From: Verrucomicrobiia bacterium
GTDB lineage: Bacteria; Verrucomicrobiota; Verrucomicrobiia; Limisphaerales; JAEYXS01
Length of the DNA: 64,000 bases
Assembly: GCA_036405135.1 (NCBI GenBank)
Contig: DASWYF010000048.1
Coordinates: 62,001 to 126,000, forward strand
Reading direction: 5' to 3'
Shown: piece after piece, positions 19,201-55,369 of the stretch
Layout of the letters: every line of letters begins with the position of its first letter
Numbering within the stretch: position 1 is the stretch's first letter
Translations under genes and position numbers: made by a program
Notes under the pieces: model-generated
Database searches by the model: none
The model's input: the letters and a program-made list of their open reading frames with translations, nothing else
Told to the model about the DNA's origin: nothing

Positions 19201-19802
19201 ATCACCAGGAGCCTGTCATGAACAAATCTGAAGGAAGGCTGTAGAAATTGCTGATTGATGGCACGTGATGACAGCGCCGGGACGGCTACTTGTCTTTCCC
19301 CGATTTCTGACATAGTCGCGAGTGTATTCGTGGGTGCTATATCCCCGAACTTCTATCCTCTAAAGCCCATAACTGGCTCTCGAGACGGTTAGAGCGGTTT
19401 AACAAATCCTGTAGCCTGGTGGCTGAAGAATGAGAAGGGCGGTCTTTTTGGGTTCTGGCTTCGTTTCGGCTCAGTCACAGGGTCCATGGAACCTTCGCCA
19501 AAGCCTCGCCAGAACCCAAAAATCCTCGCTCCACCCGGCTACATCCTTTTTTTAACCGCTCTAAGTTTCGTAACCTTCACAACATCCAGAGTTGGGCAGA
19601 CCGGTTTGCTCCGGCATCATCACGTCCAAATGGTGCCCTCGCCCTTCTTTGTCCCTTGCCCGCTTTCCTTCACTCAGGCTTAATCAACAGACGCATTTTG
19701 CCCAAAGTTTGAATGGCCGTCCGCCGGTGTCGTCTGAAAATGACCGACACAGAAGAAGGACGGATATCCATTTTGTCTCTTTGGGAACATTTTATCTATC
19801 GC
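19201..19802. other. 602-bp gene-free stretch
   Basis: It holds the long-hairpin element at 19390-19563. The flanks (19201-19389 and 19564-19802) show no convincing gene, RNA or terminator; small open frames across it translate the element or have no coding character. Confidence 0.6.
19390..19563. mobile_element. MITE-like long-hairpin element, copy 1
   Basis: A 174-bp unit that begins TAGAGCGGTTTAACAAATCC and ends with TTTAACCGCTCTA, its inverted complement. The arms keep pairing inward: GTAGCC(T/G)GGTGG and TTTTTGGGTTCTGGC occur on both sides, so almost the whole unit is one imperfect palindrome. A second copy lies at 34999-35178. No transposase frame is present. Ends in TA, which could represent a TA target duplication as made by IS630/Tc1-type transposases. 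Confidence 0.75.
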
Positions 19803-22800
19803 ATGAAACTGACGAAAACATTCGCCGCATTGCTGGCTGTGGGAGCGGCCTTGCTTATCGGCGCCAGCGCCGTAAGCGCGCAATCCTTTGAATTGAAAGA
19901 TGGAGACCGTGTGGTCTTCCTCGGTGACACGTTCATCGAGCGGGAACAGCACTATGGCTGGATCGAGCTGATGCTCACCACCCGTTTCCCGGATCGTAAT
20001 GTGACCTTCCGCAACATCGGCTGGTCCGCCGATACGCCGGTGGGTGATTCCCGTTTCGGCCTGAGTTTGCTGCAAGCCGGTCTGGAACCCGCCGATGAAG
20101 GCTGGCGCCTGCTGCAAAAGCAGATCGAGGAGACGAAGCCTACAGTGGTGTTCCTGGGTTACGGCATGGCCAATTCCTTCGATGGCGAGGCGGGCTTGGC
20201 GAAGTTCAAGACGGATTACAACCAATTGCTCGACACGATTCAAAAGCTTTCGCCCGGTGCGAGGTTTGTTTTCCTGGGCCCGATCAGCCATGAGCAATTG
20301 TCCGCTCCGTGGCCAAATGCAGCAGCGCACAATGCTCAGATCAAGGCTTACTCGGCTGCCATCGCGGAAATCGCAAAAACGAAGCAGGCACCGTTCGTCG
20401 CGCTGGATTCGCTCAAGGCAGCCAAGGCTTCCGAGCGTCTGACGGAGGACGGCATCATCCTTACTAAGGACGGCTATCTGAGCGCGGCTCAGGCGATCGA
20501 GAAATCGTTGCTCGGCAGCAATGGTACGTGGACTTCCAACAAAGCCGCTGAGCCCCTGCGCCAAGTCATCCTGCGCAAGAACGAGTGGTATTTCCACCGC
20601 TCACGCCCGGCAAACATGGCTTACATCTTCGGTTTCCGTAAGAAGGAACAGGGCCGCAATGCCGTGGAGATTCCGCAGTTCGATCCCTTGATCGAAACGG
20701 AAGAAAAGAAGATCGCCGCGCTGCGCAAGCTGACGATCCCGAATCCGCCAGCCGACCTCCAGGCGGCCAAGCCGCGTGAAGGTGCGGCGGCTGCGAAGTT
20801 CACGCCGCAACCGCATCCGCAATTCACCCTCGCGGACAATGTCGAGGTGACGCTTTGGGCGGAGAATCCGCAGATGCACAAGCCCATCCAGATGAATTTC
20901 GATTCGCAAGGCCGCCTCTGGGTCGTTAGCTCGGAAGTGTATCCGCAGATCGAACCCGGTCAGGCCGCGACGGACAAGGTCATCGTGTTGGAAGATACGA
21001 ACAAGGACGGCAAGGCCGACAAATCCACGGTGTTCGCTGATGGTCTGCTCATCCCGACTGGCCTCGAGCCCGGTGATGGCGGCGTCTATGTCGCGCAAAG
21101 CACGGAACTGTTGCACTTCAAGGATACGGATGGCGATGGCAAATCGGACCAGAAGCGCATCGTGCTCTCCAGCTTCGGCACGGAAGATACGCATCACAAT
21201 CTGCACACGTTGCACTGGGGTCACGATGGTCGCCTCTACATGAGCCAGTCCATCTACACGCGTTCTGATGTGGAGACGCCGCACGGGGTCGTGCGCCTGA
21301 AGAGCGGTGGCGTGTTCCAACTGGATACGCGCAACTTGCACATGGATGTCCTCTTCCGTGGTTGGGTGAATACGTGGGGTCATCAATTCGATGCTTACGG
21401 CCAGTCCTTCCTCACGGATGGTGCCGGCGGTCAGGGCATCAACTACGGTGTGCCGGACGCGATGTATTTCACCTACGCCCGCGCCCGCCGCATCCTCGGC
21501 AGTGTAAGCCCCGGCAATTATCCGAAGTTCGCCGGTCTGGAAGTGGTGCACAGCGAGCATTTCCCGGCGGATTGGCAGGGTAACATGATCACGTGCGATT
21601 TCCGCGCGCATCGCATCGTGCGTTTCAGCATCAGCGATCAAGGTGCCGGTTACGTGACGAAAGAGATGCCGGACGTGATGCGCACGACGGCCGATTCCTT
21701 CCGCCCCATCGATGTGAAGATGGGCCCGGATGGCGCGATCTACATCGCCGACTGGTCGAACCCGATCATCCAGCACGGTGAAGTGGATTTCCGCGATCCT
21801 CGCCGCGACCGCTCCCATGGCCGCATCTGGCGCGTGAGCTACAAGGGCAGCAAGCCGCTCAAGCTCCCGAACCTCGCGAAGGCGAGCAACACGGAGCTGT
21901 TCGAACAAACGCTCTCACCGAACAATTTCAACCAAGAACAAGCCCGTCGCGTGCTCGCCGAACGTGGCGCCGACAAGGTCACGAAAGATCTGACCGCGTG
22001 GACGAAGAAGCAAAAGGACGAGAAGGCTTTGCTGCAAGCGCTCTGGCTGCATCAGACGTTCAATCTCACCAATCGCGACCTGCTGGAGAAGATGCTCGCA
22101 GCGAAGGATGGCCGCATCCGCGCGGCCGCCACACGCGTTTTGGTCGAGTGGGTGGAGTTGAAGCAATCCGGTGGTGATACGGCGAAAGACCTCGCGTTGA
22201 TCGAGAAGCTGGTGACGGATGAATATCCGCGCGTGCGTATGGAAGCAGTCCGCGCGCTCAGCCAGTTCCCCGGCGCGCGTTCCGCCGATCTCGCGCTCAG
22301 CGTGTTGACGAAGCCGATGGACCCGTTCCTCGAGTACGCGCTCTGGCTCACGATCAATGATCTCGCGAAGCCTTGGCTCGCGGAAGTGAAGTCTGGCAAC
22401 TGGAAGGTGGAAGGTCGCGAAGCGCAGCTCGAATACGGTCTCAAAGCTGTCGAGCCCGCACTCGCCACCGACGTGCTGGCCGGTCTGTTCGCGAACAAGC
22501 CGCTCCCGCACAATGGCAGCGGTCCATGGATTGAGCTCATCGGCCAGGCCGGTGGTCCGGCGGAACTGCGCCGCATGTTCGACCAGTTGTTGAAGGGTGA
22601 ATTCGTGGAACCCGCTGCGTTGCGCGTGTTCCAATCGCTCGGTGAAGCCGCCCGTCTGCGCAATGTGCGCCCGAGTGGTGACCTCGCGGGTTTCGCGCCG
22701 ATGCTGAAAGCCACGGATAACAAAGTACGTGCCGCCGCGCTCAAGCTCGCAGGCACCTGGAAGATCGGTGCCTTCGTGCCGCAGTTGCTGCAAGCCGCTG

Positions 22801-24116
22801 GTGATGCGAAAGCTCCGGTGGACGTGCGCAATGCCGCCTTTGATGCACTGCGCGACATGGGCGCGCAAGGGCCAGTGGTGAACGGTTTGAAAGAACTCAC
22901 TGCGGCTTCGCAACCGGCGGAGATCCGCCGTCAGGCCGTCGTGGTGTTCGCCGGATTGAGCTTTAATAATGCACAGCCAGCCATCATCGAAGCGCTCAAG
23001 GCGACGACGAATGATGCGGAGGCGCAATCGCTCTGGCGTTCATTGCTGGGTATCCGCGATGCGGGCAACAAGCTCGCGGCGGCGTTGGGCAATGTGGACT
23101 TGCCGAAGAACACCGCGCTCGTCGGTCTGCGCGTGGCGCGTGAAGGCGCTCAAAATCAGGCCCTCGTTCCGGTGCTCTTGCAGAAGGCCGGGTTGACGCT
23201 CTCCGACAAGGAACTGACCACGGCAGAGTTGCAAGCCATCGCTGCCGAAGCCTTGCAAAAGGGTGATGCCGCACGCGGTGAGCGCATCTATCGCCGAGCG
23301 GAACTGGCCTGCGCGGCCTGCCACGCCATCGGTGGTGCGGGTGGCAAGGTCGGTCCAGACATGACGAGCATCGGTGCGAGTGCGCCGGCGGATTATCTCG
23401 TCGAGTCCCTGCTTTACCCGAATCGCAAGATCAAGGAAGGCTACCACTCCATCCTCATCACCACGAAGGATGAACAGGAGTTTAGCGGCATTCTCGTGCG
23501 CGAGACAGATCGCGAAGTCATCGTGCGCAACGCGGCGAACCAGGAAGTCTCCGTGGCCAAGAACAACATCGCGCAACGCCGCAATGGTGCCTCCCTCATG
23601 CCGAGCGGCTTGGTGGATGGCCTGTTGCCTGAGGAGCGGTTGGACTTGATCAAGTTCCTCTCCATGCTGGGCAAGCCGGGCGAATACGATGCTTCCAAGG
23701 GCAGCTCCCCGCGTCTCTGGCGCATCTACACGGTCACCAGCCCGAACCAGCATATTGGCGTGGAGCCGGTGGTGAAGGGTGACTTCACGCTCGCGGATTG
23801 GGTGCCGGTCTTTGCCCGCGTGAGCGGTGCTTTGCCGAAGGAAGACATCGATGCGGCGATGACGTGGAAGCGCAACACGCGCGGTGTGTTCGCGGCCACG
23901 CAATTCTCCTCCGCCAAGGGCGGTGCCGCGACGTTCACTCTGAACGGCGGTCCGATCACCGATGGCTGGCTGAACGGCAAGCAAATCAAAATCGGCAAGG
24001 AACTGCGCCTCACGCTGCAACCGGGCGTGAATACGCTCGTGCTGCAAGTGAGCGAGAGCGAGCTGCCGAATGTGATCCAGCTCAATTCGACGGATGTTTC
24101 GTTCGTGGCGAATTGA
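19803..24116 (+). CDS. PVC-type membrane-bound dehydrogenase / haem-binding CxxCH protein with SGNH domain
   Basis: A 1437-residue exported protein; the ATG at 19803 gives a clean signal peptide ending VSAQS (about residue 26). Order of domains: an SGNH/GDSL-like domain about 30-260 (VVFLGDTFIE, FRNIGWSADTPVGDS, FLGYGMANSFDG); the PVC N-terminal dehydrogenase-type propeller about 340-690 (FTLADNVEVTLWAENPQM, GDGGVYVAQSTELLHFKDTDGDGKSD, YIADWSNPIIQHGEVDFRDP); HEAT-like helical repeats about 700-1130; a cytochrome-c-like domain with Cys1170, Cys1173 and His1174 (CAACH) followed by GKVGPDMTSIG; and a C-terminal beta domain about 1290-1437. Such proteins are expected to oxidise carbohydrates or alcohols outside the cytoplasm and pass electrons to the haem. 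Substrate unknown. Single gene with its own terminator. Confidence 0.9.
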   Translation: MKLTKTFAALLAVGAALLIGASAVSAQSFELKDGDRVVFLGDTFIEREQHYGWIELMLTTRFPDRNVTFRNIGWSADTPVGDSRFGLSLLQAGLEPADEGWRLLQKQIEETKPTVVFLGYGMANSFDGEAGLAKFKTDYNQLLDTIQKLSPGARFVFLGPISHEQLSAPWPNAAAHNAQIKAYSAAIAEIAKTKQAPFVALDSLKAAKASERLTEDGIILTKDGYLSAAQAIEKSLLGSNGTWTSNKAAEPLRQVILRKNEWYFHRSRPANMAYIFGFRKKEQGRNAVEIPQFDPLIETEEKKIAALRKLTIPNPPADLQAAKPREGAAAAKFTPQPHPQFTLADNVEVTLWAENPQMHKPIQMNFDSQGRLWVVSSEVYPQIEPGQAATDKVIVLEDTNKDGKADKSTVFADGLLIPTGLEPGDGGVYVAQSTELLHFKDTDGDGKSDQKRIVLSSFGTEDTHHNLHTLHWGHDGRLYMSQSIYTRSDVETPHGVVRLKSGGVFQLDTRNLHMDVLFRGWVNTWGHQFDAYGQSFLTDGAGGQGINYGVPDAMYFTYARARRILGSVSPGNYPKFAGLEVVHSEHFPADWQGNMITCDFRAHRIVRFSISDQGAGYVTKEMPDVMRTTADSFRPIDVKMGPDGAIYIADWSNPIIQHGEVDFRDPRRDRSHGRIWRVSYKGSKPLKLPNLAKASNTELFEQTLSPNNFNQEQARRVLAERGADKVTKDLTAWTKKQKDEKALLQALWLHQTFNLTNRDLLEKMLAAKDGRIRAAATRVLVEWVELKQSGGDTAKDLALIEKLVTDEYPRVRMEAVRALSQFPGARSADLALSVLTKPMDPFLEYALWLTINDLAKPWLAEVKSGNWKVEGREAQLEYGLKAVEPALATDVLAGLFANKPLPHNGSGPWIELIGQAGGPAELRRMFDQLLKGEFVEPAALRVFQSLGEAARLRNVRPSGDLAGFAPMLKATDNKVRAAALKLAGTWKIGAFVPQLLQAAGDAKAPVDVRNAAFDALRDMGAQGPVVNGLKELTAASQPAEIRRQAVVVFAGLSFNNAQPAIIEALKATTNDAEAQSLWRSLLGIRDAGNKLAAALGNVDLPKNTALVGLRVAREGAQNQALVPVLLQKAGLTLSDKELTTAELQAIAAEALQKGDAARGERIYRRAELACAACHAIGGAGGKVGPDMTSIGASAPADYLVESLLYPNRKIKEGYHSILITTKDEQEFSGILVRETDREVIVRNAANQEVSVAKNNIAQRRNGASLMPSGLVDGLLPEERLDLIKFLSMLGKPGEYDASKGSSPRLWRIYTVTSPNQHIGVEPVVKGDFTLADWVPVFARVSGALPKEDIDAAMTWKRNTRGVFAATQFSSAKGGAATFTLNGGPITDGWLNGKQIKIGKELRLTLQPGVNTLVLQVSESELPNVIQLNSTDVSFVAN

Positions 24117-24136: not shown

Positions 24137-24170
24137 AAAGCGCCGGTCTTCGGACCGGCGCTTTTTGTTT
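24137..24170 (+). terminator. Rho-independent terminator after the cytochrome gene
   Basis: Perfect 12-bp stem AAAGCGCCGGTC / GACCGGCGCTTT with the stable TTCG tetraloop (24137-24164) followed by TTGTTT, 20 bp after the stop codon. Confidence 0.92.
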
Positions 24171-24233: not shown

Positions 24234-24635
24234 ATGTCCCAGTCGCCACAAATCTTGTATTGCCATTGCCAGTACGCGCAGATTGTCCCGAAAGAAGTGA
24301 AGGACGCCGTGCTGCGCAAGCTGTGCGAATCCGGCGTACCCTTCGAAGCGGTGGCGGATCTGTGCGAGATGTCAGCCCGCCGTGACCCTGCTCTGCAACG
24401 TCTCACGCAAGGCAATGCCATCAAAGTCGCGGCCTGCTATCCGCGTGCGGTGAAATGGCTCTTTGCGGCGGCGAATGCGCCTCTGCCACTCGATAAAACG
24501 GAAGTGGTGAATCTGCGTGTCGAGACCGCTGAGAATGCCGCTGCCAGCTTGTTGAGTCTGGAGCTGAAGCCCAATGTGCCCACCGGGAAAGTAACCGCTT
24601 CGGATGCACCCTCTGCTGAAACCGCCAACGCTTAA
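24234..24635 (+). CDS. Small Cys-rich protein, possible Fe-S/redox partner
   Basis: A 133-residue protein without signal peptide. Cysteines are at residues 10 and 12 (LYCHCQYA), 31, 44 and 68 (KVAACYPRAVKWLF). The closing VAACYPR segment resembles the cysteine-bearing V-A-A-C-S-P-R motif of HdrA-like electron-transfer subunits, and C-x-C plus later cysteines could hold a cluster, but no standard ferredoxin spacing is present. The last 35 residues are low-complexity. Its gene ends 5 bp before the ferredoxin gene, so the two are very probably one operon, with the DUF116-prenyl synthase gene further downstream. Function not recognised. Confidence 0.6.
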   Translation: MSQSPQILYCHCQYAQIVPKEVKDAVLRKLCESGVPFEAVADLCEMSARRDPALQRLTQGNAIKVAACYPRAVKWLFAAANAPLPLDKTEVVNLRVETAENAAASLLSLELKPNVPTGKVTASDAPSAETANA

Positions 24636-24640
24636 CTTAC

Positions 24641-25501
24641 ATGGCCTTAGCTGATCAATCCACTCTGCGCATCGTCCTCTATGAGGGAAATGGTGCGACC
24701 ACGCTGGCAGCGGAAGAACGCTACTCCGTCCTGAGCACGTTGCTGGGACAGGGCTATGCTGTCACCCGTGCAGGCAGTGAACGCGCTGTGTCGCCAGCGG
24801 ATAAAAGCTCCGTTTTGGTCCTCGGCCGCTTTGGTGCTGAAAAGCCGGAGACGACGACCGATTCCAGCGGCCAAGTTGCCGTGCGCTTTGAGAACCTTGA
24901 GGATACCGCGCCGGAACAAGTCATCGCGAAGGTCGATGGTATCCGCACCTCAACTGGCGCGGTGAAGCAAGGGGATTGGAAGCCGTGGTTCCCGGTCATT
25001 GATTACGACCGCTGCACGAATTGCATGCAGTGCCTGAGCTTCTGCCTCTTCGGTGTGTATGGCGTGGATAACGGCCAGCGCATCCAGGTGCAGAACAATG
25101 ATAACTGCAAGACGAACTGCCCCGCCTGCTCGCGCGTCTGTCCAGAAGCTGCCATCATGTTCCCGAAGTACAAGGCGGGTCCGATCAATGGCGATATCGT
25201 CAGTGATAAAGACCTGAACCGCGAGAAGATGAAGATCGATATCTCTGCCCTGCTCGGCGGCGATGTCTATCACATGCTCCGAGAACGCAGTGAGAAGGCT
25301 CAATCCCGCTTCAGCAAGGAACGCGATGCCGACAAGGCCTTGAGCGAACGCCAAAAGTGCCTCGTGAAGCTGGCTCAATCCGGTGACATTCCCGCCGAAG
25401 TCCTCATGTCCCTGCCATCACCTGAAGAGATCGCCCGCCGGGCGGAGGAAGCTAAGGCCAAGGCGAATGCGGCATTGGCGGCGCAGGAGCCGAAAGCTTA
25501 G
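24641..25501 (+). CDS. Ferredoxin-like protein with two [4Fe-4S] motifs
   Basis: A 286-residue cytoplasmic protein. The N-terminal about 115 residues form an unassigned domain (STLRIVLYEGNG at the start). The ferredoxin core has Cys125, 128, 131 and 135 (CTNCMQCLSFC) and Cys156, 160, 163 and 167 (CKTNCPACSRVC), enough for two [4Fe-4S] clusters; the second set has C-x3-C instead of C-x2-C at its start. The C-terminal about 80 residues are charged and helical, ending in an Ala/Lys/Glu-rich tail. It lies between the Cys-rich small gene (5 bp gap) and the DUF116-prenyl synthase fusion (141 bp gap), pointing to an electron-transfer role in a shared process. Confidence 0.8.
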   Translation: MALADQSTLRIVLYEGNGATTLAAEERYSVLSTLLGQGYAVTRAGSERAVSPADKSSVLVLGRFGAEKPETTTDSSGQVAVRFENLEDTAPEQVIAKVDGIRTSTGAVKQGDWKPWFPVIDYDRCTNCMQCLSFCLFGVYGVDNGQRIQVQNNDNCKTNCPACSRVCPEAAIMFPKYKAGPINGDIVSDKDLNREKMKIDISALLGGDVYHMLRERSEKAQSRFSKERDADKALSERQKCLVKLAQSGDIPAEVLMSLPSPEEIARRAEEAKAKANAALAAQEPKA

Positions 25502-25642
25502 CCTTGTATGCCCCCTTTGGCACACATTAAAGGCTCGACCCGTCGCATCTCTCCTCTGATATTAACCAAAAGCCTAAAACCTGCTCCATTTCGGAAAAAT
25601 GGTTGAACCGAAGAACGGGTCTGGGCGTCTGAATTGACGGTC

Positions 25643-27376
25643 ATGCAAACCGCGCCACTTACCATACCGCGTCCGGTGCCGCTTCAGCGGATTCGTCCGC
25701 CGAAGAAGAACATCCCGCAGACGAAGATCCAGCGCGACCATGTCCAGAAGGCCGTCCGGCAATATGTGGCCGAGACCCAATTCGTCCCGCCAGTGCCCAT
25801 GGAGGATCTCAAAGTCCATGCGGATACGCTGATCGCTCGGCTCAAGCTCGATCCCATTTACCGCGATTACATCGGTGTCTTGTTGAATAACGAGGTCTGG
25901 CGCGAAACCCTAGCGACCATCCCTTACGAGCGCCGCCTCCTACTCCTGCCCAAGTGCCTGCGCGTGGAGAGCAAGTGCCCCGCGCCCTTCGATGAATTTG
26001 GCCTGCTCTGCAAGCAGTGCGGTCTGTGCACGATTCAAGATCTGCAATCTGAAGCGGAACGCCTCGGTTACGCGGTACTGGTGGCGGAAGGTTCCGCCAT
26101 CGTCATGTCGCTCATCCAGACGGGCAAGATTGACGCCATCGTGGGTGTCAGTTGCCTGAGCGTGCTGGAACGCGCCTTCCCTTACATGGAAGCCGCCGCC
26201 GTTCCCGGCATCGCGATTCCGCTTTTGCAGGATGATTGCATCGATACCACGGTGGATATCGACTGGGTCTGGGACGTCATCCATCTCACGAGCGATGACA
26301 AGACTCGCCGCCTTGATCTCACTGCGTTGCGCAATGATGTCGATACGTGGTTCTCGACCGATTCGCTCATGTCCATCATGGGACCGGCGGAAGGCGAGAC
26401 CGAACGCATCGCCCGCGAATGGCTTGGCCGCGCAGGTAAACGCTGGCGCCCGTTCCTCGCCGTTTCTGCTTATCAAGCTTTGCGCGAAGAGACGACTGCG
26501 CCCTTGCCGGAAGATCTCAAGAAAATCGCTGTCGCCGTAGAATGCTTCCACAAAGCCTCGCTCATCCACGATGACATCGAGGACAACGACGCGATTCGTT
26601 ATGGCGAGAAGACTTTGCACGAGGAACACGGCACCGCCATCGCTCTGAACGTCGGCGATCTCCTCATCGGCGAAGGCTATCGCCTTATCGGTGCGTGCAG
26701 TGCCAGTGCCGCGCAAAAGGTTGAGATGCTCATAGTGGCCTCCGAAGGTCAGCGCCAGCTCTGCCAAGGTCAAGGTGCCGAACTCTGCTGGACGCGCAAT
26801 CCCGGCCCGCTGAAATCCACCGAAGTCCTCGATATATTCCGTCGCAAGACCGCACCTGCGTTTGAAGTCGCCCTGCGACTTGGTGCCGTTTACGCGAACA
26901 ATCACGAACCTTTCCGCGATGCCATCGGCAAATACAGCGAAGCCCTCGGCATCGCCTATCAGATCCGCGATGACTTGAGCGATCTCGGTGCCACTGGCGA
27001 AACGAACGACATCGAAGGCATACGTCCCAGCTTGCTCCTCGCCGTCGCCAGCGAACGCGCGAAAGGCGAAGCCGCTGCTCAACTGGAATCTTGGTGGAAA
27101 CGCCAGCCGTTAGCAGGTGTTACTGCCCAGCGCATCGAAGCGCTGTATCGCGAACTCAAGGCAGATGACCGCGCGAACACGCTCCTTGAGACGTATCAGG
27201 AAGAAGCCATCCGCGCCCTGCGTGACGTGGAGAATGCGAACCTGAAGGGCCTGCTCCGCCGCGTCATCGGCAAGATTTTCAACGAAGCCGAAGTGCAAGG
27301 CTGGTGCAGCGAGTTTGAGGAGAAGAATCTCGCCCGCCTAAACCTGTCGCTCCCAATCATCACCCCGAAGGCGTAA
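25643..27376 (+). CDS. Fusion: DUF116-like Cys-rich domain + polyprenyl diphosphate synthase
   Basis: A 577-residue protein; an in-frame TTG three codons upstream was rejected for the ATG at 25643. Residues about 80-215 form a DUF116-type domain with cysteines at 105, 112, 123, 126 and 129 (LPKCLR, SKCPAPF, LLCKQCGLC), a likely Fe-S site. Residues about 250-575 form a complete trans-prenyltransferase: GKRWRPFL, the first Asp-rich motif HDDIED (310-314) and the second DDLSD (443-447). A small residue (Ala) five positions before the first motif predicts a long-chain product, as in octaprenyl/solanesyl synthases. It would condense isopentenyl diphosphate units in the cytoplasm. The link between an Fe-S domain and prenyl elongation is unusual; the upstream ferredoxin supports a redox role. 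Confidence 0.85.
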   Translation: MQTAPLTIPRPVPLQRIRPPKKNIPQTKIQRDHVQKAVRQYVAETQFVPPVPMEDLKVHADTLIARLKLDPIYRDYIGVLLNNEVWRETLATIPYERRLLLLPKCLRVESKCPAPFDEFGLLCKQCGLCTIQDLQSEAERLGYAVLVAEGSAIVMSLIQTGKIDAIVGVSCLSVLERAFPYMEAAAVPGIAIPLLQDDCIDTTVDIDWVWDVIHLTSDDKTRRLDLTALRNDVDTWFSTDSLMSIMGPAEGETERIAREWLGRAGKRWRPFLAVSAYQALREETTAPLPEDLKKIAVAVECFHKASLIHDDIEDNDAIRYGEKTLHEEHGTAIALNVGDLLIGEGYRLIGACSASAAQKVEMLIVASEGQRQLCQGQGAELCWTRNPGPLKSTEVLDIFRRKTAPAFEVALRLGAVYANNHEPFRDAIGKYSEALGIAYQIRDDLSDLGATGETNDIEGIRPSLLLAVASERAKGEAAAQLESWWKRQPLAGVTAQRIEALYRELKADDRANTLLETYQEEAIRALRDVENANLKGLLRRVIGKIFNEAEVQGWCSEFEEKNLARLNLSLPIITPKA

Positions 27377-27602: not shown

Positions 27603-28718
27603 CTACACATCCCGATGCGTCGGCTGCGGCTTGCCCGGCTTGAACGCCTCCAGATGCTCCTGTTTCGCCGTCAATCCCGGGAATGCCACCAGCGTTTCCG
27701 AAACCGCATCCGCCAATAATTTCTGCAAATCTTCCGGAGCCGCTTCGGCCCGCATGTTCACCGTCAGATGTGCATCTGTGAACGGCTCTTCCAACTCCAT
27801 CGAAAGCTCCGGCACATAATCATTTCGCACTAGATTCAGCACGGCCAGATCGCCCAAGCTATCCTCCGGTTCCAACGTCATCTTGAAGTGAGCAACCTCA
27901 CTGCCGTGAGCGGTGAGCTTGCGTCGCACCGATTCCGCCAGTTGGCGCAGAAACTCATTTGCGTCCGTTTGCTTCTCGGTCTGCAGGGTGTAAGCGGCAT
28001 TTAACCAGCCCAGCAGTGCCTCGCCATCCGCATACACTTCATAATCCACCTCCATCACCGCACGTGGCTTCTGGGTCGTCTCGGTCAATTCCTTGAACCA
28101 CTCCTCCAACCCTTCACCTGTGCGTGCGGAAACCGTCATGATCTTGGCGAGCGGGAAACTCTTCGCCAAGGCCGCTTGCAGTTCGGTCAGTTTCTCCGGC
28201 GAGAGCATATCTCGCTTGTTGATCACGATGATGTCCGCCTCTTCGAGCTGCTTGCGGTAGATATACTCCACCTTCTCGGAGAAACGGCTGCCCTGTTCCA
28301 ATCCCAGAACACGTGCCGCTCGGATCGGGTCCACCAAAACACTGAGCGGCGCAATCGTGTAGGACTCCCCATACATGCGGCGCAGCGGATATGTCACCGT
28401 TGCTACCAAATCCGTGCAACTCCCCACCGGTTCCGCGATGAACACTTCAGGCAAGGTGCGTTTGTTCAAGCGGTCCGCCGCTTCCACCAAGGAATTGAAG
28501 CGGCAGCAAAAGCACCCGCCGGAAATCTCTTCCACTTCGTAATCGTGAGAGGCCAGCAAGGCGGTATCCACGAGCTGACTGCCTTGGTCATTATCGATCA
28601 ACCCCACGCGCAGACCGTGTGTGTCATCCAGCCAATGCGCCAGCTTGAGCACCGAGGTCGTCTTGCCAGCGCCGAGAAAGCCGCCGATCATGATGTAACG
28701 GGCCGGGGTCGTTTCCAT
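27603..28718 (-). CDS. CobW/COG0523-type G3E GTPase (metallochaperone-like)
   Basis: A 371-residue cytoplasmic GTPase. Walker A GGFLGAGKTT lies at 12-21, the metal-binding C-x-C-C motif of the family at 69-72 (GGCFCC), and the guanine-specificity motif NKRD at about 167-170. COG0523 proteins use GTP to deliver Zn, Co or other metals to target proteins. The C-terminal domain lacks the histidine-rich insert of many Zn-responsive members. It is divergent from an ArsR-family regulator whose C-terminus holds a cysteine cluster, so metal-dependent control by that neighbour is likely. Which metal is involved cannot be told. Confidence 0.88.
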   Translation of the reverse strand: METTPARYIMIGGFLGAGKTTSVLKLAHWLDDTHGLRVGLIDNDQGSQLVDTALLASHDYEVEEISGGCFCCRFNSLVEAADRLNKRTLPEVFIAEPVGSCTDLVATVTYPLRRMYGESYTIAPLSVLVDPIRAARVLGLEQGSRFSEKVEYIYRKQLEEADIIVINKRDMLSPEKLTELQAALAKSFPLAKIMTVSARTGEGLEEWFKELTETTQKPRAVMEVDYEVYADGEALLGWLNAAYTLQTEKQTDANEFLRQLAESVRRKLTAHGSEVAHFKMTLEPEDSLGDLAVLNLVRNDYVPELSMELEEPFTDAHLTVNMRAEAAPEDLQKLLADAVSETLVAFPGLTAKQEHLEAFKPGKPQPTHRDV

Positions 28719-28857: not shown

Positions 28858-29178
28858 GTGGGTAAGGAAAAAACCAGCCCGACAGAGTGTGTGCCTTGGC
28901 TCAAAGCGCTGGCTGATGAGACGCGATTCGCGATCATGCAGCAGCTGATCAACCGTCCCCTCAGTGTGGGCGAAGTGGCGAAGGCGCTCGGCCTGACGCA
29001 TTACAACGCCTCCAAACACCTTCGCATCCTGCGCGAAGCCGGCCTGATCGAGCAAAAGATCCAAGGGCGGGTGCATGAATACACGGTCACGCCTGATTTT
29101 CGCCGCCGCATGTCATCCGAGAAGACGTGCCTAGACCTGGGTTGCTGCTCCTTCCAGTTCGAGCAAAAGAAAGATTAG
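28858..29178 (+). CDS. ArsR-family metal-type repressor
   Basis: A 106-residue winged-helix protein starting at a GTG at 28858. The helix-turn-helix is LSVGEVAKALGLTHYNASKHLRILREAGLI (35-64), followed by the beta-wing QGRVHEYTV. Cysteines at 11, 91, 96 and 97 (KTCLDLGCC near the C-terminus) could form a metal or thiol sensor site, as in several ArsR/SmtB proteins, though the classical ELCVC site on the recognition helix is absent. The start lies 139 bp from the divergent CobW GTPase gene, so the shared gap probably holds its operator. Confidence 0.85.
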   Translation: MGKEKTSPTECVPWLKALADETRFAIMQQLINRPLSVGEVAKALGLTHYNASKHLRILREAGLIEQKIQGRVHEYTVTPDFRRRMSSEKTCLDLGCCSFQFEQKKD

Positions 29179-29264: not shown

Positions 29265-30479
29265 ATGTCCACCATCGCCGTCTTGGGAACGTTTGACACC
29301 AAAGGTATTGAGCATGCCTATGTAGCAGAGCAAATCCGTCATCAAGGGCACACGCCTCTGCTCATCAATGTCGGCGCTTTGGAGGCATCACAGATTCCGG
29401 CGGATATCACTTGTGAACAAGTGGCGGCGGTCGGCGGAGTCGATCTTGTAGCTTTGAAAGCCCGTAAAGATCGCGGTGAAACAGTAGCTGCGATGGCCAA
29501 GGCGGCAGCGATGATGATGCAAAAGCTGGTGGCGGATGGAAAGATCGATGGTGTGATCTCTTTGGGAGGCGGTGGCGGTACGGCCATAGGCACGGCGGCC
29601 ATGCGGGCTTTACCCATCGGGTTTCCCAAGCTGATGGTGTCAACCTTGGCGAGCGGTAACACGGCGCAATACGTTGGCTCGAAAGATATCGTGATGTTCC
29701 CGAGCATTGTGGATGTGGCGGGGTTGAACCGCATCTCACGGCAAATCCTGACTCATGCAGCGGGTGCGATTTGTGGCATGGTGAGCACACGCGCACCCAA
29801 GGCGGAGGACAAACCCATCATCGTGGCGAGCATGTTCGGCAATACGACGATAGCGGTGAATCATGCGAAGGGGATTTTGGAACAAGCAGGATATGAAGTG
29901 CTGGTATTTCATTCCACAGGCACAGGCGGGCGCACGATGGAATCGCTCATCGAATCCGGCATGGTGAGCGGCGTGCTGGATATCACCACGACGGAGTGGG
30001 CGGATGAAGTGGCGGGTGGGTTTCTTACGGCAGGGCCGACACGCCTCGAAGCGGCGGCCCGCAAAGGTGTGCCTGCGATCGTCGCGCCGGGTTGCTTGGA
30101 CATGGTGAATTTCCACGGGCCTGACACTGTTCCGGCAAAATACCAAGGGCGTAAATTTTATCAGCACAATCCGCAGGTGACGCTCATGCGTACCAATGCG
30201 GAAGAGAACCGCACGATGGGACGGATGATTGCAGAACGGTTGAACCTTTCGACTGGGCCGGTCACGGTGTTATTGCCTCTGAAAGGGTTCAGTGTGATCG
30301 CGGCTCCGGGCGGTTCATTCCATGACGCGGCGGCGGATGAAGCGTTTTGTGGTGAATTGAAGAAAGGTCTGCGCAAGGACATCCCGGTGATCGAGATGGA
30401 TTGTGTGGTGAATGATCTGGCATTTGCGGATCGTTGCGCGCGGACGTTGTTGCAGCAGATCGAAGCCGCGAAGAAATAA
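29265..30479 (+). CDS. Tm-1-like ATP-binding domain protein (UPF0261)
   Basis: A 404-residue cytoplasmic protein of the Tm-1/UPF0261 family. The N-terminus IAVLGTFDTKGIEHAYVAEQI and the glycine-rich GVISLGGGGGTAIGTAAMRALPIGFPKLMVST are family landmarks of the ATP-binding half; the second half has LVFHSTGTGGRTMESLIESG and the C-terminal VIAAPGGSFHDAAADEAF. Plant Tm-1 inhibits a viral replication protein, but the bacterial members have no settled enzymatic role. The gene follows the ArsR gene by 86 bp and ends right at a hairpin. Confidence 0.9.
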   Translation: MSTIAVLGTFDTKGIEHAYVAEQIRHQGHTPLLINVGALEASQIPADITCEQVAAVGGVDLVALKARKDRGETVAAMAKAAAMMMQKLVADGKIDGVISLGGGGGTAIGTAAMRALPIGFPKLMVSTLASGNTAQYVGSKDIVMFPSIVDVAGLNRISRQILTHAAGAICGMVSTRAPKAEDKPIIVASMFGNTTIAVNHAKGILEQAGYEVLVFHSTGTGGRTMESLIESGMVSGVLDITTTEWADEVAGGFLTAGPTRLEAAARKGVPAIVAPGCLDMVNFHGPDTVPAKYQGRKFYQHNPQVTLMRTNAEENRTMGRMIAERLNLSTGPVTVLLPLKGFSVIAAPGGSFHDAAADEAFCGELKKGLRKDIPVIEMDCVVNDLAFADRCARTLLQQIEAAKK

Positions 30480-54058: not shown

Positions 54059-55369
54059 ATGAATCTCCGTTGCCTTGCTTTGACTTGCGTTCTCTCGCTC
54101 AGCGCTTTGACCGGTTGGACTGCTGAGACGGCTAACTGGCCGCAATTCCGCGGACCGGACGGCGATGGCCACTCGGCTGCCAAAGGTCTGCCGCGCAAAT
54201 GGAGTGAGACGGAGAACATCAAATGGAAAACGGCGGTGGAAGGGCGCGGCTGGGGTTCACCCGTCATCTGGGGCAAGCAGGTCTGGGTGCCTACGGCTAC
54301 GGAAGACGGCAAGCAACTCTCCGCAGTTTGCCTGGACAAGGATTCGGGCAAGGAGCTTTTCAAGCAGAAGCTGTTCGATGTGGCCGCGCCGCAGTTCGCG
54401 CATAAGTTCAACAGCTACGCTTCGCCCACGCCGGTGATCGAGGATGGACGTATCTATATCACTTTCGGTTCACCCGGCACGGCGTGCATCGATACGAAGA
54501 CTTTCAAGGTGCTGTGGCAACGCACGGACATTGAGTGCAACCACTATCGTGGCGCAGGCTCTTCGCCGATCATCTACAAGGACCTGCTCATCATGAACTA
54601 TGATGGCAGCGATCATCAATTCGTCCTCGCCCTCGATAAGAAGACGGGCAAGACGGTGTGGAATGTGAAGCGCTCCATCGATTTCATGGACTTGAAGGAT
54701 GGCAAACCGGAGGCAGACGGCGATTGGCGCAAGGCTTACGCCACGCCGCACATCGCCATGATCAAGGGCAAGCCGGTGCTGCTGAGCATTGGCGCCAAGG
54801 CGTTCTATGGCTATGATCCGCTGACCGGCAAGGAGCTCTGGCGCGTGGAAGAGCGTGGCCAGCACTCGGCCAGCACGCGTCCAGTCGTGGGCAAGGACAT
54901 GATCTATTATCCGACCGGTTTCGCGAAGGGCCAGCTCTTCGCCATGAAGGCGGATGCGAGTGGTGTATTGACCGCCACGAACATGGTGTGGTCCACCAAA
55001 CGCAGTGTGCCGAACAAGCCTTCGCTGCTGCTCATCGATGACCTGCTCTTCGCGATCGATGATAGCGGCATCGCGAGCTGTCTGGATGCGAAGACGGGCG
55101 AATCCATCTGGAATGAGCGCATCGGCGGGAACTTCTCAGCATCGCCAGTTTACGTCGATGGTATGATTCTCTTCACGAGCGAGCAGGGTAAGTGCACACT
55201 CATCGAGGCGGGGCGCACCTTTAAGGTGATTTCCGAGAACCAGCTCGGTCAGGTCGGTGAACCGCTCAGTGGTTTCATGGCGTCTCCGGCCATCTCGGAC
55301 AGGGCATTCTATCTGCGCTCACGGACGCATGTGTATCGCATTGAGAATGCGGGGCTGGCGGCGAAGTAA
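54059..55369 (+). CDS. Exported PQQ-type beta-propeller protein
   Basis: A 436-residue protein with a signal peptide (LALTCVLSLSALTGWTAE). The mature part starts with NWPQFRGPDGDGHSAAKGLP, the classic entry of secreted PQQ-binding-like propellers in this phylum, and has blades marked by A-x-D-K/A-K-T-G-K-x-x-W patterns: CIDTKTFKVLWQR, ALDKKTGKTVWNV, GYDPLTGKELWRV, CLDAKTGESIWNE. No catalytic residues of alcohol dehydrogenases are evident, so it may be a scaffold or binding protein. The small HAD gene follows 12 bp later on the same strand. Confidence 0.9.
   Translation: MNLRCLALTCVLSLSALTGWTAETANWPQFRGPDGDGHSAAKGLPRKWSETENIKWKTAVEGRGWGSPVIWGKQVWVPTATEDGKQLSAVCLDKDSGKELFKQKLFDVAAPQFAHKFNSYASPTPVIEDGRIYITFGSPGTACIDTKTFKVLWQRTDIECNHYRGAGSSPIIYKDLLIMNYDGSDHQFVLALDKKTGKTVWNVKRSIDFMDLKDGKPEADGDWRKAYATPHIAMIKGKPVLLSIGAKAFYGYDPLTGKELWRVEERGQHSASTRPVVGKDMIYYPTGFAKGQLFAMKADASGVLTATNMVWSTKRSVPNKPSLLLIDDLLFAIDDSGIASCLDAKTGESIWNERIGGNFSASPVYVDGMILFTSEQGKCTLIEAGRTFKVISENQLGQVGEPLSGFMASPAISDRAFYLRSRTHVYRIENAGLAAK

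Follow-up and report, generated by a model that had tools for sequence, protein, structure and literature searches.

The hopanoid pathway runs through HpnC, HpnD and HpnE, a squalene-hopene cyclase (SHC) and the radical S-adenosylmethionine (SAM) enzyme HpnH. Class II cyclases such as this family cyclise by protonation. A route that needs no squalene is the sesquarterpene (C35) pathway of Bacillus, composed of HepS/HepT, YtpB and SqhC (PMC7839719). Here we describe three consecutive genes (g1, g2 and g3) in a stretch of 64,000 nucleotides, referred to as the window, from a Verrucomicrobiia bacterium (assembly GCA_036405135.1, contig DASWYF010000048.1, positions 62,001 to 126,000). We infer, the product and the reactions included, that this trio is probably part of a squalene-independent pathway to an isoprenoid lipid that is polycyclic or modified in some other way. 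The core set in Verrucomicrobiota comprises g1, g2, a radical SAM enzyme, g3, a small toroid protein and an SHC-like cyclase.

The Bacillus C35 pathway is the nearest described route (PMC7839719). Both combine a polyprenyl diphosphate synthase with an SHC-family cyclase, and the Verrucomicrobiota set probably likewise has no need of squalene. The described route, however, is without iron-sulfur (Fe-S) proteins, a radical SAM enzyme or DUF116, and the Verrucomicrobiota set has a 300-aa toroid in addition to its 600-aa SHC-like protein. Squalene-free synthesis of cyclic terpenoids is already known; what may represent a new kind is the portion made up of the Fe-S proteins, DUF116 and the radical SAM enzyme.

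The trio encodes a DUF116-polyprenyl synthase fusion

A first-pass annotation of the window had placed three genes in a row on one strand with gaps of 5 and 141 bp. The open reading frames were recovered at these coordinates on the + strand. The g1-g2 spacing is 5 bp, and g2 is followed by g3 after 132 bp to TTG 25634, the first possible start, or after 141 bp to ATG 25643, the start to which the annotated gap counts. The features of the trio are as follows.

24234 to 24635, + strand: g1, 133 aa, HdrA-N-like Fe-S domain protein (Cys10, Cys12, Cys44 and Cys68)
24641 to 25501, + strand: g2, 286 aa, 2x[4Fe-4S] ferredoxin with an additional Cys-free N-terminal domain (basis: Pfam Fer4 matches and eight invariant Cys)
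25634 to 27376, + strand: g3, DUF116-polyprenyl diphosphate synthase fusion, 580 aa from TTG 25634 or 577 aa from ATG 25643
25847 to 26281, + strand: DUF116 domain of g3, enclosing seven invariant Cys (residues 108-202)
26405 to 27109, + strand: polyprenyl synthase domain of g3, with two DDxxD motifs (26570-26584 and 26969-26983)

The fusion proposed for g3 held up, with both halves matching above cut-off: DUF116 (PF01976) at residues 72-216 with 123.7 bits (cut-off 25) and polyprenyl_synt (PF00348) at residues 258-492 with 147.1 bits (cut-off 27). The synthase half has both Asp-rich motifs (DDIED at 313 and DDLSD at 446), and a PDB search with the g3 model returned polyprenyl synthases. In the same whole-g3 search, no separate fold match emerged for the DUF116 half, since the synthase half took up the matches listed. 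The residues C108, C115, C126, C129, C132, C174 and C202 and the first Asp-rich motif (Asp 313, 314 and 317) were invariant in an alignment of 14 sequences.

Chain length in this family is controlled by the residues ahead of the first DDxxD. In g3 this context reads ECFHKASLIHDDIED, with Ala at position -5. Of the genome's other synthases, the one with ATLVHDD shares this residue and the one with TYSLIHDD does not, and the pattern hints at a product chain longer than C20. With two further polyprenyl synthases encoded in the window genome, the housekeeping role probably falls to one other than g3.

The open-access literature on DUF116 yielded nothing on its function, and the two papers in which both DUF116 and polyprenyl appear name DUF116 a single time each. 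Stand-alone DUF116 copies, which have the same domain and Cys pattern as g3 and no polyprenyl synthase fusion, were found in six genomes, a seventh match (G094) being marginal. Four of the six loci adjoin CrtI-family (phytoene desaturase) genes (L221, L222, L223 and L225; judged by eye in L223) and one adjoins IspH (L226), an isoprenoid gene setting like that of g3. These neighbours are an independent tie of DUF116 to isoprenoids. The sixth copy (L224) adjoins a ketol-acid-reductoisomerase-like gene, as read by eye.

The trio co-occurs with a cyclase, a toroid and a radical SAM enzyme

We examined co-occurrence in 145 Verrucomicrobiota genomes and, beyond the phylum, in one Omnitrophota-labelled metagenome-assembled genome (MAG). 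We disregarded contig labels that seem untrustworthy, for example 'Akkermansia muciniphila' given to lake MAGs. Calls of g3 had E-values of 3e-83 or better, and the next matches covered the synthase half only. By this measure g3 was found in 21 of the 145 genomes, and the same 21 had a strong g2 match. All 21 also encode the SHC-like cyclase, which was otherwise represented by only one fragment among the other 124 genomes. The ~300-aa toroid was present in 21/21 g3-positive genomes and 0/19 controls, and the radical SAM orthologue in 19/21 and 0/19, respectively. Fisher p values, which ignore relatedness, were 2e-24 for the cyclase, 8e-12 for the toroid and 2e-9 for the radical SAM enzyme. The positive genomes span 14 families, of which at least six (f16, f20, f23, f31, f32 and f40) contain both positives and negatives. 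This suggests that the block has been repeatedly gained or lost together.

The two g3-positive genomes missing the radical SAM orthologue are G124 and G114. A different radical SAM family adjoins the g1-g2 gene in G124 and in the Omnitrophota-labelled MAG (49% identity between the two), and a DUF3641-type radical SAM gene adjoins g2 in G114, where the observation is one of adjacency only. With other families in the same place, the pathway seems to require a radical SAM step of whichever family. Radical SAM genes of other subfamilies lie by the g1-g2 gene at L195:8252-9835, L089:5472-7022 and L093:5590-6606, which looks like an exchange of the enzyme with its partners retained; a weak MiaB/RimO-like match was obtained for the one in L195.

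The neighbourhood check suggested by the first-pass annotation showed that the trio genes stay together in many relatives. Among 80 named loci, mostly labelled Verrucomicrobia and many on short contigs, g3 was counted in 80, the radical SAM gene in 41, g2 in 37, the toroid in 36, g1 in 30, CobW in 26, GcvH-like in ~25, NifS in 17 and the SHC-like gene in 16. A frequent run in Verrucomicrobiia is NifS (-), GcvH-like (where present), CobW, g1, g2, radical SAM, g3, toroid and SHC-like. In several relatives, g3 is separated from the g1-g2 gene by a radical SAM gene. The GcvH-like protein has the lipoylation lysine in every sequence found. Among the loci examined from most other classes its gene did not turn up, and a scan of ~0.8 Mb (about 14%) of the window genome did not find it either. 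In Chthoniobacter flavus Ellin428, g3, the toroid and the cyclase lie on one contig (L135) and NifS, GcvH-like, g1, g2 and the radical SAM gene on another. As this bacterium is cultured and has the whole core set, the proposal is testable.

The partner enzymes point to a probable substrate other than squalene

The SHC-like cyclase (~600 aa), whose gene in the window genome lies outside the window, contains the Pfam SQHop_cyclase domains PF13243 and PF13249. The DxDD motif was found in 13/13 cyclase sequences, a count that leaves out the alignment row L084:6377-7285, which is the toroid of G004. The toroid is of prenyltransferase type, with Prenyltrans as its main Pfam match, and conserved Cys or His residues fit as zinc ligands were not found in an alignment of 12 sequences. 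The radical SAM protein (PF04055), also encoded outside the window in this genome, has CxxxCxxC in 14/14 sequences, and three more invariant Cys suggest an auxiliary cluster.

An SHC-family cyclase alongside a radical SAM enzyme is reminiscent of the hopanoid pathway. However, the cyclase scored 94-108 bits against the hopene cyclase model TIGR01507 (cut-off 431), and the NCBIfam matches of the radical SAM protein were all far below their cut-offs, with 39 bits for HpnH (TIGR03470; cut-off 225). Squalene/phytoene synthase (PF00494, the HpnC/HpnD type) is also missing in 16 of the 21 g3-positive genomes, and the cyclase substrate is therefore probably a linear polyprenyl chain rather than squalene. 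The other five have PF00494 proteins, the window genome among them with two. Elsewhere in the window genome, at C16:18962-19795 and outside the window, lies another SHC-family match, a distant one with 32% identity; together with the two PF00494 proteins it may represent a separate hopanoid route.

g1 and g2 resemble HdrA without its flavin domain

HdrA of heterodisulfide reductase has an N-terminal Fe-S domain, a flavin adenine dinucleotide (FAD) domain and two ferredoxin domains (PMC9012536). The two tetracysteine motifs annotated in g2 were recovered as Pfam Fer4_6 and Fer4_2, and C125, C128, C131 and C135 as well as C156, C160, C163 and C167 were invariant (n=13). No Pfam or NCBIfam family matched g1, in which Cys10, Cys12, Cys44 and Cys68 were invariant (n=17). 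The cysteines proposed as Fe-S ligands are thus invariant in the orthologue alignments of g1, g2 and g3, indicating that they are under constraint. Taken with the occurrence of g2 and g3 in the same 21 genomes, the signal from the trio far exceeds chance.

Relatives of g1 were not found in the PDB by sequence alone, and a Foldseek search with its AlphaFold2 model (predicted local distance difference test score, pLDDT, 90) gave no match below E 0.001. Reading of the motif pointed to HdrA, and VIA-align of the model ranked chains of HdrA, drawn from six PDB entries, at Z 6.5-6.8, which is middling taken alone. Profile comparison by hhalign with the N-terminal domains of HdrA-like proteins from the same phylum gave a match with a probability of 87% and E 4e-6, and all four Cys of g1 aligned with Cys of the HdrA N-terminal domain in 20/20 sequences. 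Most other classes have g1 and g2 fused into a single protein of 202-295 aa. A domain search showed that the FAD-binding thioredoxin-reductase domain of HdrA is absent from g1, g2 and these fusions, and flavin-based bifurcation is therefore not expected. Together, g1 and g2 share with HdrA an N-terminal Fe-S domain and a ferredoxin domain, and look like HdrA minus the flavin domain, that is, a putative electron relay rather than a bifurcator.

In Verrucomicrobiia, the N-terminal domain of g2 (24641-24970 in the window) is free of Cys and occupies the position that the g1 domain has in relatives. This N-terminal domain may descend from a duplicated g1 domain that has decayed; its hhalign match to g1 is weak (probability 8%, E 0.004).

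Proposed pathway and alternative explanations

In the proposed pathway, the synthase half of g3 would make a polyprenyl diphosphate, probably longer than C20, which the DxDD cyclase-like protein and the ~300-aa toroid would cyclise by protonation. The radical SAM enzyme would modify the same isoprenoid independently of oxygen. g1 and g2 would act as a flavin-free, HdrA-like [4Fe-4S] relay, and its low-potential electrons would go either to the radical SAM enzyme or to the DUF116 half of g3, or to both. The Fe-S site of DUF116 would sit adjacent to the growing or finished isoprenoid diphosphate, and its role there, whether reduction, dephosphorylation or coupling, is a guess. NifS and CobW could help to build the metal centres and, in relatives, the GcvH-like lipoyl protein may carry an intermediate. 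A bolder form, which we regard as speculative and rather unlikely, is that DUF116 is an Fe-S redox domain acting directly on allylic isoprenoid diphosphates by reductive removal or coupling. With the flavin-free HdrA-like relay, the lipoyl carrier and the radical SAM enzyme, it would then define terpenoid chemistry of a new class, in which ring lipids are made or modified and squalene synthase plays no part.

The first-pass annotation had suggested a three-gene cluster for an electron-transfer step tied to making a long-chain isoprenoid. The tie between electron transfer and isoprenoids is backed by the neighbourhood, the co-occurrence and the HdrA-N-like g1, but at least six genes form the core. 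Although the trio is adjacent, the whole system is scattered over contigs in the window genome, and the isoprenoid is more likely cyclised or modified than merely long. The annotation knew of no described system of this kind, and in the open-access literature we likewise found no paper describing such a cluster and none combining DUF116 with radical SAM. The pathway would place both DUF116 and an HdrA-like module in isoprenoid biosynthesis and gives a name to a coherent gene set across Verrucomicrobiota. It also predicts an uncharacterised ring lipid, and new cyclic bacterial lipids matter as biomarkers.

Several points weigh against this proposal. The resemblance of g1 to the N-terminal Fe-S domain of HdrA, as modelled and aligned, is modest (Z below 8). 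The subfamily of the radical SAM protein says nothing on its chemistry as far as sequence matches go, and the hint of chain length in g3 is judged only from the residues ahead of the first DDxxD. In the window genome, only g1-g2-g3 and CobW are together; the radical SAM gene lies on C33 and the cyclase gene on C27, both other contigs, and the toroid gene lies on the same contig at C48:180247, ~91 kb from the trio and ~54 kb past the window. Some of the absences may be MAG gaps, and NifS and CobW may be general housekeeping genes.

The Fe-S part could instead stand in for squalene synthase, with DUF116, g1/g2 and the radical SAM enzyme carrying out a reductive head-to-head coupling of two polyprenyl diphosphates. 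The squalene-like hydrocarbon would then be cyclised by the SHC-like protein. Such a scheme would agree with the 16 of 21 genomes that keep the cyclase without squalene/phytoene synthase, with the fusion of DUF116 to a prenyl synthase, and with the stand-alone DUF116 genes adjoining phytoene desaturases, enzymes acting on head-to-head products. We nevertheless consider it unlikely, given the PF00494 proteins in five g3-positive genomes, the window genome included, and a cyclase far below the squalene-hopene cyclase cut-off (94-108 vs 431 bits). Squalene formation by a radical or Fe-S enzyme is also not known to us. A similarly small chance is given to sulfur chemistry, in which NifS and the GcvH-like lipoyl carrier would deliver sulfur, the HdrA-like g1/g2 would handle it and the radical SAM enzyme would insert it, yielding a thio-isoprenoid. 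The lipoyl carrier with its lipoylation lysine (in the run in ~25/80 named loci) and NifS (17/80) lend this some weight in relatives, as does the weak MiaB/RimO-like match in L195, and the sHdr sulfur oxidation systems with LbpA also pair HdrA-like, GcvH-like lipoate-binding and radical SAM proteins (PMC6067878); the genes here differ from them in being linked to a prenyl synthase and cyclases. However, HdrB or HdrC was not noticed here, and NifS could merely serve Fe-S assembly. The GcvH-like gene was, moreover, not seen in most other-class loci examined or in ~0.8 Mb of the window genome.

Two further explanations were considered and set aside as disfavoured. The synthase might simply supply a chain for quinones or carrier lipids, with the Fe-S genes as unrelated neighbours. 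Polyprenyl synthases are universal and the trio is split in G066 (g1-g2 on C9, g3 on C17), but the two other polyprenyl synthases of the window genome, the absence of g3 from most of the phylum and its tight linkage and co-occurrence with g1/g2, the cyclase and the toroid make this very unlikely. We give the least credence to protein prenylation, in which the ~300-aa toroid would be a protein prenyltransferase. Prenyltrans is indeed its main Pfam match, but it is without conserved Cys or His able to act as zinc ligands (n=12), and the linked cyclase-like protein suggests a small-molecule lipid.

Genes surrounding the trio

Two features flank the trio in the window.

24140 to 24170, + strand: intrinsic-terminator-like stem-loop and T-run, 5' of g1, between g1 and the preceding gene (read by eye)
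27603 to 28718, - strand: CobW/COG0523-type GTPase (Pfam cobW), a recurrent neighbour of the trio

The terminator-like hairpin indicates that g1 probably starts a transcription unit. Orthologues of the CobW protein with 54-55% identity are found beside the trio in L094 and L096. An ArsR-family regulator gene (28858-29178) is divergent from the CobW gene and is directly followed by a gene for a UPF0261 (PRK02399) protein (29265-30479). The region 5' of the trio (19713-24116) encodes a 1467-aa protein with a CxxCH motif (CAACHAIGG), by eye possibly a cytochrome-c-type dehydrogenase of the Planctomycetes-Verrucomicrobia-Chlamydiae (PVC) kind. PQQ_2 (BamB-like) beta-propeller genes adjoin the g1-g2 gene in many other-class loci (for instance L080:9745-11061 and L082:10539-12317), and a distant PQQ_2 (BamB-like) gene is present in the window at 54059-55369, 27 kb from the trio.

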